A stretch of 64,000 nt of DNA, taken from NCBI RefSeq assembly GCF_040450955.1, contig NZ_CP144373.1, positions 1,840,486 through 1,904,485 on the forward strand, read 5' to 3'. The stretch comes from Thermodesulfovibrio sp. 3907-1M. Lineage in GTDB: Bacteria > Nitrospirota > Thermodesulfovibrionia > Thermodesulfovibrionales > Thermodesulfovibrionaceae. Shown piece by piece: positions 15,569-52,455 of this stretch (position 1 is its first letter; each line of letters opens with the position of its first letter). A model generated the notes under the pieces. It did no database searches, had not been told where the DNA came from, and saw only the letters and a program-made list of their open reading frames with translations. The position numbers and the translations under genes are program-made.

Positions 15569-16750
15569 TTATTGAATATTTCCACTCAATACTGTTTTTA
15601 AAATCTCAATCACTTCATCAGGTTTTATGTCAAAGAGGCATTTGCTTATTTTTGAGCCTCCGCAGCCATCCTGTCCGCAGGGAATGCAACTCCAGTTTCT
15701 CTGGATTACTATGTTTTTGCCGAATCTTTGAATGCCATTTTTTTGTGAATAGGGATTTTCAACTGCTTCATTATCCCATGGACCCCAATGGAATGCTCCA
15801 CTTGGACCAAAAAGTGCTACAACAGGTTTCCCTAAGGCTGCTGCTATGTGCATTGGTGCTGTGTCTATGCCAAAGTATATGTCACAGAGGGCTGCTACTG
15901 CTATGAGTTGTCTAAGTGTTAGTTTTCCTGCAAGATTGATTATAGAAGAACCATCCTGAGAGTAGCCGAAAGGCTCATAATGGCAGGAGGGAATATATGA
16001 AAGAATTGACTCTATTTTTTTAAGTTCCCTTTCATCTGCCGATGAAGTAAGAACAACTCTGTGTCCATTGGAAATCAGCCATTTTATAACTTCTGCCATG
16101 TATTCGTCCTTCCAGCATTTAAAAAGCCATCGGGATGTAGGATGAATATGGATAATTTTTTTATTAGAGGAGGGGATTCCTCGCATTTGCTCGGAATGAC
16201 ATAAATGAGGCTCGGAATGACGAGGAAAAATCAGGTTTTTTGCCAAAGTTTTTTCATCTTCTGTAACATTGAGAAATAATTCAGGCTTTCCGATTTTTAA
16301 TCCTATTTTTTCAAGAACTTCAAGATTTTGAAGCAATGTATGTTTATGCCCGTTTATTTCAAAAATTCTGGTATAAAGATGTTTTTTCCCAAAAAATCCT
16401 TTTGATTTTATGCCAATTCTTGTTTTAGCTCCTGAAAAATAGGATATTACCGCTGCTCTGTCTCCTCCTGTAAGGTCTATGGTGGTATCAAACCCAATCT
16501 TTTTTATATTCCTTAGAAATCGAATCTCATCAATATATCTTTTAAAAGCAGGTAATTTTTTTATTTCCCTGTCATAGGTGATAATCTGGTCAATGTAAGG
16601 ATTTTTCTCAAGAACAGCCTCTGTGCCTTTGTTTACCAGTGCAGCAATAAAGGAATTCGGAAGATTTTCTTTTAAAGTCTTGAAAACAGGTGTTGTAAGT
16701 AAAACATCTCCTATATGACGAAGCTTTATGACAAGAAATTTTTTATACAC
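15569..16750 (-). CDS. GT9 heptosyltransferase-type enzyme
   Basis: ADP-heptose:LPS heptosyltransferase family, 393 residues, the longest of the three here. It opens FLVIKLRHIGDVLLTTPVF; the donor site has IHIHPTSRWLFKCW and FGIDTAPMHIAAALGKPVV; it ends with a Cys-rich segment (CIPCGQDGCGGSKISKC). The extra length comes from two repeat-derived inserts. One is at about residues 176-197 (RHSEPHLCHSEQMRGIPSS) in the interdomain linker. The other is PSCHYEPFGYSQDGSS in the C-terminal domain, just before INLAGKLTLRQL. Both are in frame and free of stops. It overlaps the WaaG-like gene by 25 bp. Confidence 0.9.
   Translation of the reverse strand: MYKKFLVIKLRHIGDVLLTTPVFKTLKENLPNSFIAALVNKGTEAVLEKNPYIDQIITYDREIKKLPAFKRYIDEIRFLRNIKKIGFDTTIDLTGGDRAAVISYFSGAKTRIGIKSKGFFGKKHLYTRIFEINGHKHTLLQNLEVLEKIGLKIGKPELFLNVTEDEKTLAKNLIFPRHSEPHLCHSEQMRGIPSSNKKIIHIHPTSRWLFKCWKDEYMAEVIKWLISNGHRVVLTSSADERELKKIESILSYIPSCHYEPFGYSQDGSSIINLAGKLTLRQLIAVAALCDIYFGIDTAPMHIAAALGKPVVALFGPSGAFHWGPWDNEAVENPYSQKNGIQRFGKNIVIQRNWSCIPCGQDGCGGSKISKCLFDIKPDEVIEILKTVLSGNIQ
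15951..15983. repeat. Second-type palindromic repeat inside a GT9 gene
   Basis: An imperfect inverted repeat: CCAT...ATGG at the ends and AGCC-GAAA-GGCT in the middle. The CCATCCTGAG...GTAGCC text resembles another common class of bacterial dispersed repeat. It is translated in frame as the HYEPFGYSQDG part of the GT9 protein. Only this one copy is recognised in the window. Confidence 0.4.
16167..16221 (-). repeat. Palindromic repeat inside a GT9 gene
   Basis: One full copy (16167-16200), with arms GGATTCCTCG and CGGAATGAC around a GCATTTGC centre, plus an extra right arm GCTCGGAATGAC (to 16221). It lies in frame in the GT9 coding sequence and is read as the HSE-containing insert in the interdomain linker. 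Confidence 0.8.
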
Positions 16751-22977: not shown

Positions 22978-23085
22978 AAATCCTCCTTGTTTCGGTTTAT
23001 CCTAAGATTGCCGAATAGAATTAACAAAGCATTGCCTCTGCCGTGATTGTGAGTCCAACAAGCTCGGGCGTTGCAGTATTCTCAA

Positions 23086-23130
23086 ATTCCTCGCCTTTGG
23101 CTCGGAATGACAAGGCAAAGGCTCGAAATA
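23086..23130 (-). repeat. Palindromic repeat, intergenic
   Basis: A full copy (23086-23111), with arms ATTCCTCG and CGGAATGAC around a GCC-TTT-GGC centre, followed by a decayed right arm (GGCTCGAAAT). It lies between the NrpR-like gene and the lactate permease gene. Confidence 0.75.
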
Positions 23131-23173
23131 ATATTTTCTCTCAGCAACTTTAAAATTATACCATGTTGATTTT

Positions 23174-29533: not shown

Positions 29534-29571
29534 TAACAGTTCAATTCTCTCTGAAATTGAAGATAGAAACT

Positions 29572-29731
29572 GTCATTCCGAGGGGCTCAATGCCATTTTC
29601 ATTGTCATTCCGAGGGTGGCATCCCACCCGAGGAATCTCTGAAATAGTGAGAAAGGAGGAGATTCCTCGCTTCGCTCGGAATGACAAAGTATGGGCAGGC
29701 TCGGAATGACAGAGAAGGAGCTCGGAATGAC
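29572..29731. repeat. Cluster of palindromic repeats, intergenic
   Basis: The 345-bp space between cheW and pgpA is filled by copies of the dispersed element. There is a partial copy at 29572-29594 (centre GGGCTCAATGCC). A full copy at 29604-29639 has centre GGGTGG-CATC-CCACCC. A full inverted copy at 29655-29685 is an exact reverse complement of the copy at 51471-51501. Lone right arms CTCGGAATGAC lie at 29698-29710 and 29718-29731. A short open frame through the region is only the translation of these repeats. Confidence 0.85.
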
Positions 29732-29799
29732 AAATCTATAAACCCCTTTGAAACATTAGTTTTCTATTTTTGTCAGCAAATTTAGATTCTTCTCAATTG

Positions 29800-49924: not shown

Positions 49925-51301
49925 ATGAAAAAGCCGTGGGGTGGGAGGTTTAAGGAAGGGACAGCAAAGACTCTTGAGGAGTTTTCCCAGTCCATCTCCT
50001 TTGACCATAAACTCTGGAGAGAGGACATAGAGACAAGCTCTGCCCATGCAAAGATGCTTCATAAACAGGGCATTATTGATGCCTTTGAGCTTGAGCAGAT
50101 ACTTCAGGGACTTAAAGAGATTGCGAAAGAGATTGAGCAGGGCAGATTTCAGTTTAAAGAGGAGCTTGAAGATGTTCATATGAACATTGAAAAAGCACTC
50201 ATTGAAAAGATCGGCTCTGCAGGTGCAAAGCTTCATACTGCCCGTTCAAGGAATGATCAGGTAGCAACAGACTTGAGACTTTATCTGAGAAAAAAAGTCT
50301 CTAAAATTATTGAACAGCTTACAGAACTTGAGAAAATCTTCATCTCCATTGCTGAAAAACATATTGATACAATTATGCCCGGCTATACCCATCTTCAGAA
50401 AGCTCAGCCAGTGCTTCTTGCTCATCATCTTCTTGCCTATGCATGGATGTTTGAAAGAGACCGTGAAAGATTTAAAGAAGCATTAAAAAGAATAAATCAC
50501 TGCCCCCTTGGTGCCTGTGCAATAGCTGGTAGCAGCCTTCCAATTGACAGGGAATTCACTGCAAGAGAGCTTGGATTTGAAGGAGTTATTCCAAACAGCA
50601 TGGATGCTGTATCAGATAGAGATTTTGTGCTTGATGTTTTATACTGCGGAGCAATGGTGATGATGCATTTAAGCAGACTTGCTGAAGAGTTAATAGTTTG
50701 GGCAACTGATGAGTTCAGATTCATAGAGCTTCCCGATAGATTCTCAACAGGCTCAAGTATGATGCCTCAGAAGAAAAATCCAGACCCGGCAGAGTTAATC
50801 AGGGGAAAAACAGGCAGAGTTTATGGAAATCTGCTCTCCCTTCTTACAACAATGAAAGGACTTCCGCTTACATACAACAGAGACATGCAGGAGGATAAAG
50901 AACCTGTTTTTGATACAGTTGAAACAGTGAACGTGAGCCTTAAGATAGTCAATGAGATGCTTCCAGAGATAAAGTTCAACAAAGACAAGATGAAAGAAGC
51001 TTCAGAGAAAGGCTTTACCACTGCTACAGACCTTGCAGAGTATCTTGTAAAAAAAGGTGTTCCCTTTAGAAATGCCCATGAAATAACAGGCAAGATTGTG
51101 CTTTACTGCATTGAAAAGGGAAAGAATCTCACAGATTTGAGCATGAAGGAGTTTAAAAAGTTTTCCAGAAAAATTGAAAGAGATGTTTACGAAATACTTA
51201 CTCCAGAAGGTTCAATTAAGGTAAAAATCTCCTATGGAAGCAGTTCAAAAAAGAGTGTAAAGGAGCAGATAAAGCTACTGAGAAAGAGATTGAGGGGATG
51301 A
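49925..51301 (+). CDS. argH: Argininosuccinate lyase
   Basis: Last step of arginine synthesis, giving arginine and fumarate, 458 residues. It starts KPWGGRFKEGTAKTLEEFSQ. HTARSRNDQVATDLRLYLR and TIMPGYTHLQKAQPV carry the active-site His/Thr. The superfamily signature is GSSMMPQKKNPDPAELIRGK (Gly276 on). Full length. The downstream lipoprotein gene starts within its stop codon. Confidence 0.97.
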   Translation: MKKPWGGRFKEGTAKTLEEFSQSISFDHKLWREDIETSSAHAKMLHKQGIIDAFELEQILQGLKEIAKEIEQGRFQFKEELEDVHMNIEKALIEKIGSAGAKLHTARSRNDQVATDLRLYLRKKVSKIIEQLTELEKIFISIAEKHIDTIMPGYTHLQKAQPVLLAHHLLAYAWMFERDRERFKEALKRINHCPLGACAIAGSSLPIDREFTARELGFEGVIPNSMDAVSDRDFVLDVLYCGAMVMMHLSRLAEELIVWATDEFRFIELPDRFSTGSSMMPQKKNPDPAELIRGKTGRVYGNLLSLLTTMKGLPLTYNRDMQEDKEPVFDTVETVNVSLKIVNEMLPEIKFNKDKMKEASEKGFTTATDLAEYLVKKGVPFRNAHEITGKIVLYCIEKGKNLTDLSMKEFKKFSRKIERDVYEILTPEGSIKVKISYGSSSKKSVKEQIKLLRKRLRG

Positions 51302-52455
51302 AGAAAGGAAAATTGAATATTTACATAGAGATTCCTCGGGGCATTGAGCCCCTCGGAATGACAAAAAATAGGTCATTCCGAGCCTTTTCCTTGTCATCGT
51401 ATATTAGATCATTCCGAGCTTTTTTATTGTCATTCCGAGCTTTTTTATTGTCATTCCGAGCTTTTTTATTGTCATTCCGAGCGAAGCGAGGAATCTCCTC
51501 CTTCTTAGTAATTTTCATCTCATTGTTGTTCCTCCTTACAGGCTGTGGAAGAAAGATGGATCCTACCCTGGAAGATTATCTTCAACCAGAACCTGCTCAG
51601 AACATAACATTATCAGCTTCTTATGACAAAATTGTGATTTCATGGAGCTACTCTGAAAAAAAGAAAGCAAAAATTGGAAGTTTTCTTCTGGAAAGAGAAA
51701 ATTCAGGCCAGGTAAAATCTTTAGGATATTTTGATAATCAGACTAACTCATATGAAGATAAAGAGTTTGTACTTGGTGAAACCTATAAATATCGTCTGAT
51801 TGCAATAAGTGGAAAGGGTGTTTACAGTAAACCGGTTGAGGCAAGTATAACCCCAAAAAAACTGCCTGAGGTTGAAAATATCCAGTATAAGATTACAGAT
51901 GAAGGAGTGATGCTTTCATGGCATAGTTCAGACTCTGTTATGTATAACATTTATACGATCAATCATAAAGGAGAAAGGTCAAAAAAAGGCTCAACGGATA
52001 AAGATTTTTTCCTGGATAAAATAAGTTTTTTCACTTTAAGTTCTTTTATTTCTTTTGAGGATGTTACTGCTTCTGGATATTTAACCTATCTTATTTCTCC
52101 ATATATTTCTGAAGGCGCAGCGTACATTGAAGGACCTGGCAGACAGATAAAGATTCCCATTGAAGATTTTATTCCATCAAAACCCAAAGAAGTATTCTGG
52201 ACAATCAATGAAAACGGTGTTTATATCTCCTGGAAAGAAGTTCCTGAAAAATGGATTAAGGGATACAAAATTTACAGAAAAACAGCCAGTGATTCAGAGT
52301 TTATCCTGATTGGTGAAACTATGATTCCATTGTTTTTTGATGTGCAGTATAATATAAATAATTTGAAAGCACCAGTTTTTTATAGAATTTCTTCAGCAGC
52401 TCCTTTAAAGGAAAGCGAACCTATTGAAATAAAAGTGGAGGTTCAGAATGGATAG
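51298..52455 (+). CDS. FN3-domain lipoprotein with repeat-encoded N-terminus
   Basis: 385 residues from the ATG at 51298. The first 66 or so are encoded by copies of the palindromic repeat: IEIPRGIEPLGMTKN, then SFRAFLL three times (38-58), then SFRAKRGISS. A lipoprotein signal follows (FLVIFISLLFLLTGC, Cys83). The mature protein has about three fibronectin-III-like domains (SYDKIVISWSYSEKKKAKIG, DEGVMLSWHSSDS, NENGVYISWKEVPEKWIKGY). A 60-residue n-region is not normal for a lipoprotein signal. The true start may be the TTG at 51469, which would leave a 25-residue signal (SFRAKRG then the hydrophobic core). It is coupled to argH (4 bp) and hypE (8 bp). Confidence 0.75.
   Translation: MKKGKLNIYIEIPRGIEPLGMTKNRSFRAFSLSSYIRSFRAFLLSFRAFLLSFRAFLLSFRAKRGISSFLVIFISLLFLLTGCGRKMDPTLEDYLQPEPAQNITLSASYDKIVISWSYSEKKKAKIGSFLLERENSGQVKSLGYFDNQTNSYEDKEFVLGETYKYRLIAISGKGVYSKPVEASITPKKLPEVENIQYKITDEGVMLSWHSSDSVMYNIYTINHKGERSKKGSTDKDFFLDKISFFTLSSFISFEDVTASGYLTYLISPYISEGAAYIEGPGRQIKIPIEDFIPSKPKEVFWTINENGVYISWKEVPEKWIKGYKIYRKTASDSEFILIGETMIPLFFDVQYNINNLKAPVFYRISSAAPLKESEPIEIKVEVQNG
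51330..51501 (+). repeat. Array of palindromic repeats inside a lipoprotein gene
   Basis: From left: a full copy at 51330-51362 with centre GGGC-ATTGA-GCCC; a left arm at 51372-51383; a decayed arm near 51393. Three exact tandem 21-bp units follow at 51409-51429, 51430-51450 and 51451-51471 (TCATTCCGAGC then TTTTTTATTG). A full copy ends the array at 51471-51501. The tandem period is 7 codons and is in phase with the lipoprotein reading frame. Confidence 0.9.

Follow-up and report, generated by a model that had tools for sequence, protein, structure and literature searches.

A REP-like palindromic repeat in frame at the predicted signal peptide of a lipoprotein gene coupled to argH in Thermodesulfovibrio

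Palindromic repeats inserted in frame have been described in Rickettsia (PMC2229807, PMC10969869) and in enterobacteria (PMC2759123). RPE and Wolbachia palindromes are interspersed and intergenic and occur also in frame within conserved protein genes, often tolerated (PMC2229807, PMC10969869). T. yellowstonii was among the genomes scanned for REPs (PMC12306157). Among titles and abstract openings in the open-licence literature on Thermodesulfovibrio palindromic repeats and on palindromic or signal-peptide insertions, we found none that describes the case reported here, and six substrings of the repeat letters matched nothing in open-licence papers, which is weak evidence of novelty.

The window analysed is a 64,000-nucleotide stretch of the Thermodesulfovibrio sp. 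3907-1M genome. It contains a repeat placed between the ATGA start at 51298 and the hydrophobic signal part of a lipoprotein gene that follows argH. The features of this junction, in window coordinates, are as follows.

49925..51301, + strand: argH (argininosuccinate lyase; Pfam Lyase_1 and ASL_C2), the upstream partner of the lipoprotein gene
51298..52455, + strand: lipoprotein gene with fibronectin type III similarity (ORF, 385 aa from the coupled ATG; Pfam fn3, E 9.5e-10)
51298..51300, + strand: coupled start codon ATG, the best supported (ATGA overlap with the argH stop TGA; ribosome-site score -7.2)
51328..51363, - strand: inverted half-element GAGATTCCTCG-GGGCATTGAGCCC-CTCGGAATGACA, forming inverted repeats with the later units; such facing halves occur elsewhere in the genome
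51373..51383, + strand: first core, TCATTCCGAGC, with a diverged stretch next (spacing 36)
51409..51471, + strand: three exact 21-bp units, TCATTCCGAGCTTTTTTATTG, in a tandem array
51469..51471, + strand: TTG, the alternative start of an earlier sequence-only reading (25 residues before the Cys; ribosome-site score -2.2)
51472..51497, + strand: complete head, TCATTCCGAGCGAAGCGAGGAATCTC, translated SFRAKRGIS; the 25-mer head has 25 copies in the genome
51502..51546, + strand: hydrophobic signal segment and lipobox, from the translation (Cys codon 51544-51546)

The sequence-only reading had reported three exact 21-bp units encoding SFRAFLL three times, then SFRAKRGISS and the lipobox FLLTGC, with a period that preserves the frame. 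These observations hold. The units lie at 51409, 51430 and 51451, TRF returns 51409-51482 as a 21-bp array of 3.5 copies with 100% match (score 148), the peptide is present in the translated frame, and that frame runs uninterrupted from the ATG at 51298 to the TGA at 52455. A fourth core, at 51472, continues into GAAGCGAGGAATCTC. The array starts earlier than had been proposed, with the core at 51373 and the inverted half-element before it. The n-region, given as 60 residues, is longer than that: counted from the coupled ATG, 68 residues precede the hydrophobic segment FLVIF and 82 lie ahead of the Cys. The hydrophobic segment is followed by FLLTGC, a putative lipidation site. Rfam gave two sub-threshold matches only between 51000 and 51900, both to human lncRNA families.

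The array is real, as had been said; what was missed is that its unit is a genome-wide repeat. An 11-mer core has 118 copies in the 1.94-Mb genome, while the reversed control has 0; the core search listed 100 of the 118 places, and the stretches read cover 114 of the 118 cores. Within the window, allowing at most one mismatch, the core has 17 matches, where shuffled sequences average 0.57 and reach 3 at most. Copies of the repeat consist of facing halves, TCATTCCGAG-hairpin-CGAGGAATCTCC and TCATTCCGAG-GGTGGCATTCCACCC-GAGGAATCTC, and tandem partial units, most commonly spaced by 25 or 32 bp, precede the halves. The head is predicted to fold as a hairpin.

The cores read fall into 58 clusters (114/118 cores). 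Two of these are clearly intragenic, one in the lipoprotein gene and one in a GT9 glycosyltransferase gene; several of the remainder overlap open frames that look spurious on inspection, and the rest touch no long ORF. Copies within ORFs at loci L001, L003, L014, L321 and L323 were rejected on this ground, their open frames appearing spurious by eye. Single cores in a TolC-like gene (L319, reverse strand) and in the linker of an NAD-synthetase-like protein (L333), both genes named by eye, are probably chance matches or remnants. More clusters stand outside long ORFs in the window at 23066-23135 and 29548-29755, with two facing arrays at 29.6 kb. Elsewhere in this genome dense clusters of facing halves occur at L002, where blocks recur about every 250 bp, at L009, and at L018, which has several near-identical copies; these clusters suggest recent local amplification.

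The 25 copies of the 25-mer head compare with 0-2 per genome in 60 relatives, 56 of which have none, and this suggests that the head was amplified recently in this lineage. A 28-mer head occurs exactly in records of several phyla, mostly metagenome-assembled, in at least 118 stretches. Among the matches listed (80 of these stretches, the window's own genome being possibly absent), record titles name Nitrospirae, Bacteroidales, Acidobacteria, Chloroflexi, Fimbriimonadales, Kiritimatiellae, Gemmatimonadaceae, Verrucomicrobia and others. RAYT-bound REPs carry a 5' guide tetranucleotide. RAYT (Y1 transposase, PF01797) was rejected as the mobiliser of the repeat because PF01797 has 0 matches in this genome; it has matches in 2 of the 16 genus genomes.

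The argH–lipoprotein junction was found in 13 of the 16 genus genomes, counting this one (G000). The three with no junction match are G003 and G011, whose completeness is 56-63%, and G009, at 94%. Six of the 13 are insert-free and start at the argH stop, which leaves a signal 15-29 residues long ahead of the Cys; five of these have the ATGA overlap (G014, G007, G013, G012 and G006), and G001 starts at a GTG that overlaps the argH stop by the stop's final base. The other seven carry inserts of at least three kinds, and all seven are open from the ATGA to the Cys. G000 and its nearest relative G010 have the present repeat in the frame SFRAKRGIS. G002 and G015 have a palindrome of about 157 nt in the frame CSLMRYLW, and G004 and G005 have the same palindrome family with other ends and in another frame (SFAHELF/SFAYELF-like). 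The insert of G008 is an array of TCATTCTGAGCC with spacing 21-21-21 in the frame HSE, which differs from the frame used in this genome.

Three repeat kinds or frames imply at least three insertion events. Either each palindrome subtype goes back to an insertion of its own, or a single insertion underwent paired frameshifts. How many events there were is uncertain, because the G002-type subtypes are discordant with a weakly supported tree and G007, within that group, is insert-free; several nodes of the tree are weak (24 to 79), and for this reason the count of events relies on repeat kind and frame instead. The family of the 157-nt palindrome has matches in 8 of the 16 genus genomes. Of 15 of its alignments viewed in context, three are at the argH–lipoprotein junction, the others are by eye not in obviously conserved genes, and several overlap open frames. 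For the present repeat, the junction of G010 holds one head-like unit and a left-half remnant, in frame, against five cores in G000, also in frame. Expansion by slippage or recombination would fit this species-level difference in unit number.

We think it probable that a REP/BIME-like, RPE-like repeat is here tolerated in frame, with the peptide that it encodes discarded together with the signal peptide. A mosaic fold-back repeat of two facing REP-like halves would have inserted just after the coupled lipoprotein start, probably before this species and G010 diverged, and its 5' unit would then have multiplied here in 21-bp steps. The ribosome ending argH would restart at the ATG at 51298 and translate through the repeat, giving an n-region of about 68 residues before an unchanged, native-looking hydrophobic segment and lipobox. 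From what is known of lipoprotein export, signal peptidase II should cut off the whole repeat-encoded peptide. Because that peptide would be removed, the mature lipoprotein would be unchanged, and the site would tolerate insertions as long as they preserve length and frame. The direct basis is the identity of the repeat, its site, the start at the argH stop, the open frame, the recurrence of inserts and the five relatives without nearby starts (below); selection would be the reason why the frame is kept. N-regions this long are unusual in signal peptides, and the atypical length, with export itself a prediction, speaks against the proposal.

The frame is preserved in the spacing of the cores as well. 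With cores taken no more than 50 nt apart, the spacings inside the lipoprotein and GT9 genes are 21, 36, 21, 21 and 21, all five multiples of 3, compared with 11 of 71 elsewhere (Fisher P 0.00024, an optimistic value, since the units are in part duplicates of one another). Nor is a 21-bp unit peculiar to the lipoprotein gene, since 3 of the 71 spacings outside both genes are also 21. Among similar repeat clusters outside both genes (n=23), 23 of 138 frames are open, and among the palindrome copies 12 of 60. The second clear in-frame copy, also in the window, has these features.

15569-16750, - strand: GT9 glycosyltransferase gene (Pfam Glyco_transf_9, E 2.1e-35)
16155..16245, - strand: second in-frame repeat copy, within the GT9 gene, reading RHSEPHLCHSEQMRGIPSS; it lies between conserved blocks (16190-16220)

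Nine genus sequences were compared at this site. The repeat or a related insert is present in G000, G010, G002 and G015, and the other five (G004, G008, G009, G013 and G005) are insert-free; a single TGA interrupts the G010 match, and the G005 sequence, with 54%, is possibly a paralogue. A second site in the gene is length-variable, with a TCATTCTGAG unit in G015. In the window this second variable stretch (CHYEPFGYSQDG) lies downstream of the in-frame repeat. The GT9 copy shows that the lipoprotein is not the only gene to tolerate the repeat in frame, and it lies beyond what the discarded-peptide reasoning explains.

Neighbouring junctions of the operon served as controls. In 10 of 11 genomes the lipoprotein gene and the next one share an 8-nt overlap (129 in G004), and ahead of the next exported protein, which is SurA-like, the distance between the stop and the first aligned residue never exceeds 83 nt in 11 genomes. 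The EF-G to argH gap, which is outside reading frames, is 524 nt in G002, 1517 in G005, 191 in G004, 244 in G008 and 82 in G014; this widened junction shows that insertion is not restricted to the lipoprotein junction. At L294, L295, L297 and L303, loci of four relatives, the same gap is about 190-1500 nt and in three of these four it holds copies of the palindrome family; in the window it is 10 nt.

A broader version of the proposal can be offered tentatively, and we would not yet favour it: the n-region of a translationally coupled lipoprotein may be a general safe harbour that repeatedly receives unrelated fold-back repeats, since the peptide would be discarded by signal peptidase II, with the signals of such genes being rebuilt from repeat DNA and the added hairpin adjusting their output against that of the upstream gene. 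It is unlikely, in our judgement, that the function lies in the RNA, with a hairpin in the argH–lipoprotein mRNA that shields the argH mRNA or slows ribosomes, thereby uncoupling the levels of the two proteins, and with the open frame a by-product of coupling. REP elements are known to affect upstream mRNA, and long repeat-like inserts recur at this junction. An RNA role is possible because the inserts fold more strongly than shuffles (z -3.2 here, -4.9 in G005 and -8.1 in G002). However, palindromy is expected of such repeats at any location, and 6 of the 13 genus genomes do without any insert.

The junction was also surveyed across the order. Of 156 genomes, 120 match a profile of the mature protein, although in at least three the match is weak and lies in a larger protein, and 118 loci minus four duplicates (L022, L024, L025 and L027) left 114 loci that were read. 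The genomes that are profile-matched but uncounted at the junction include G018, G022 and G030, whose junctions were seen, and G020, G021, G086, G101 and G159. The Cys is near its expected place in 114 of 114 loci, the rule being the nearest Cys within 12 residues; the invariant C, G and K are partly so by construction, as the rows were chosen with the CG-x-K pattern and G006 (CARK) was omitted. argH lies within 420 nt upstream at 101 of the 114 loci, and at 89 of these 101 junctions there is an in-frame start between -14 and +12 nt from the argH stop.

At 29 of the 101 junctions the argH stop and the Cys are at least 100 nt apart, and 18 of the 29 are open and coupled. Among the 29, several (L075, L082, L087, L101 and L104) show palindromic repeats on visual inspection. 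In three of the 11 other long junctions no stop interrupts the gap, and an in-frame start follows the argH stop after 67 nt (L072), 39 nt (L104) or 27 nt (L116); in L104 there is an ATG 68 residues before the Cys. The remaining eight are stop-interrupted, which shows that beyond the genus the frame rule has exceptions. In seven of these eight a further in-frame start lies 25-37 residues ahead of the Cys (L074 has none), which means that downstream starts can arise; order-wide, where the frame breaks, a nearer start is usually available. In L104 and L116 the lipoprotein frame is the argH frame, open back to the argH stop, and one stop separates the two. At L074, L075, L098 and L099, from other families of the order, the hydrophobic segment is seemingly built of FTVYCLLFTVYC-like short repeats, as if repeat DNA had supplied the membrane-spanning part.

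These broken frames bear on where translation starts at the junction in the window. Between the coupled start and the Cys there are one in-frame ATG (62 residues before the Cys) and seven TTGs, so downstream initiation is possible in this genome. The sequence-only reading had left two options, that the element cut the gene off from its original start and brought along a new one at TTG 51469, or that it lengthened the protein and kept the coupling to argH. In its fuller form the first has the lipoprotein made mainly from TTG 51469, with the array as an untranslated spacer separating the gene from its old start. TTGs 25 and 32 residues before the Cys would indeed give a normal, positively charged n-region, and TTG 51469 is where it had been placed, at 25 residues; the seven broken-frame junctions with a nearer start also speak for this reading. 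Its anti-SD pairing score of -2.2, however, equals the background median of -2.2, and all four TTGs of the array score at background level. ATG 51298 scores -7.2, at the best-5% mark of the background, TTG 51313 scores -6.0 and ATG 51358 -4.7.

The upstream start is moreover retained along with the open frame, the repeat units preserve that frame, and genus genomes with and without inserts alike have a start at the argH stop. In five insert-bearing relatives (G002, G004, G005, G015 and G008) none of the 35 codons preceding the Cys is ATG, GTG or TTG; barring an unusual start codon, these genomes would need the coupled start or one nearby. Because five of the seven insert genomes thus have no nearer ATG, GTG or TTG, the coupled ATG is the most likely start. 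We consider main initiation at TTG 51469 quite improbable and the displacement claim unsupported, while extension of the protein with coupling kept is supported.

It had also been suggested that the unit number could shift by slippage and so switch or tune export or expression of the lipoprotein. The five cores here against one in G010 (a comparison at species level, with one genome per species) and the varying unit number of genome copies with a similar left flank would agree with such a contingency locus. We judge it very improbable all the same: the array has only 3.5 copies, and there would be no on/off switch because a 21-bp step cannot shift the frame. That the whole is a matter of chance or annotation, with the gene starting elsewhere or being a pseudogene, is hardly credible in spite of the long n-region and repeat-like peptide, given a mature protein intact across the order (120/156 genomes, at least three weak) and a conserved operon place and start.

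In-frame tolerance of a discarded peptide, if correct, extends protein-coding palindromic repeats to Nitrospirota, and the head of the repeat is found across several phyla. The discarded peptide is a testable reason for the different inserts at one junction in different species. Other repeats at this spot in related species hint at how genomes tolerate insertions inside genes. There is also a warning for annotation, in that gene starts annotated downstream of such repeats may be wrong.

Comparison with the known systems places the repeat near several of them. Like the RPE and Wolbachia palindromes, it is a palindromic repeat fused in frame in conserved genes (the lipoprotein junction and the GT9 loop). 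RPEs are given as 105-146 bp and described from Rickettsia (PMC2229807, PMC10969869), whereas the present element is a mosaic of facing halves and tandem 21-32 bp partial units in Nitrospirota, and in this case it is a signal-peptide n-region that is repeatedly hit. With REP and BIME elements it shares short imperfect palindromes, many copies (118 cores), facing halves, tandem arrays and apparently a location mostly outside long ORFs; unlike them, it has no RAYT match in the genome and two clear intragenic copies.

The enterobacterial RU-1/ERIC, RU-2 and RU-3 fusions are likewise small mobile repeats with open frames fused to genes (PMC2759123). There the RU repeat forms part of the predicted signal, whereas here the hydrophobic segment looks native and one site has different kinds of insert across species. 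PARCELs are tandem palindromic coding repeats too, some of them in surface lipoproteins, but they are 25-residue protein domains (PMC2996958), whereas the repeat described here is a 7-residue unit in a signal n-region.
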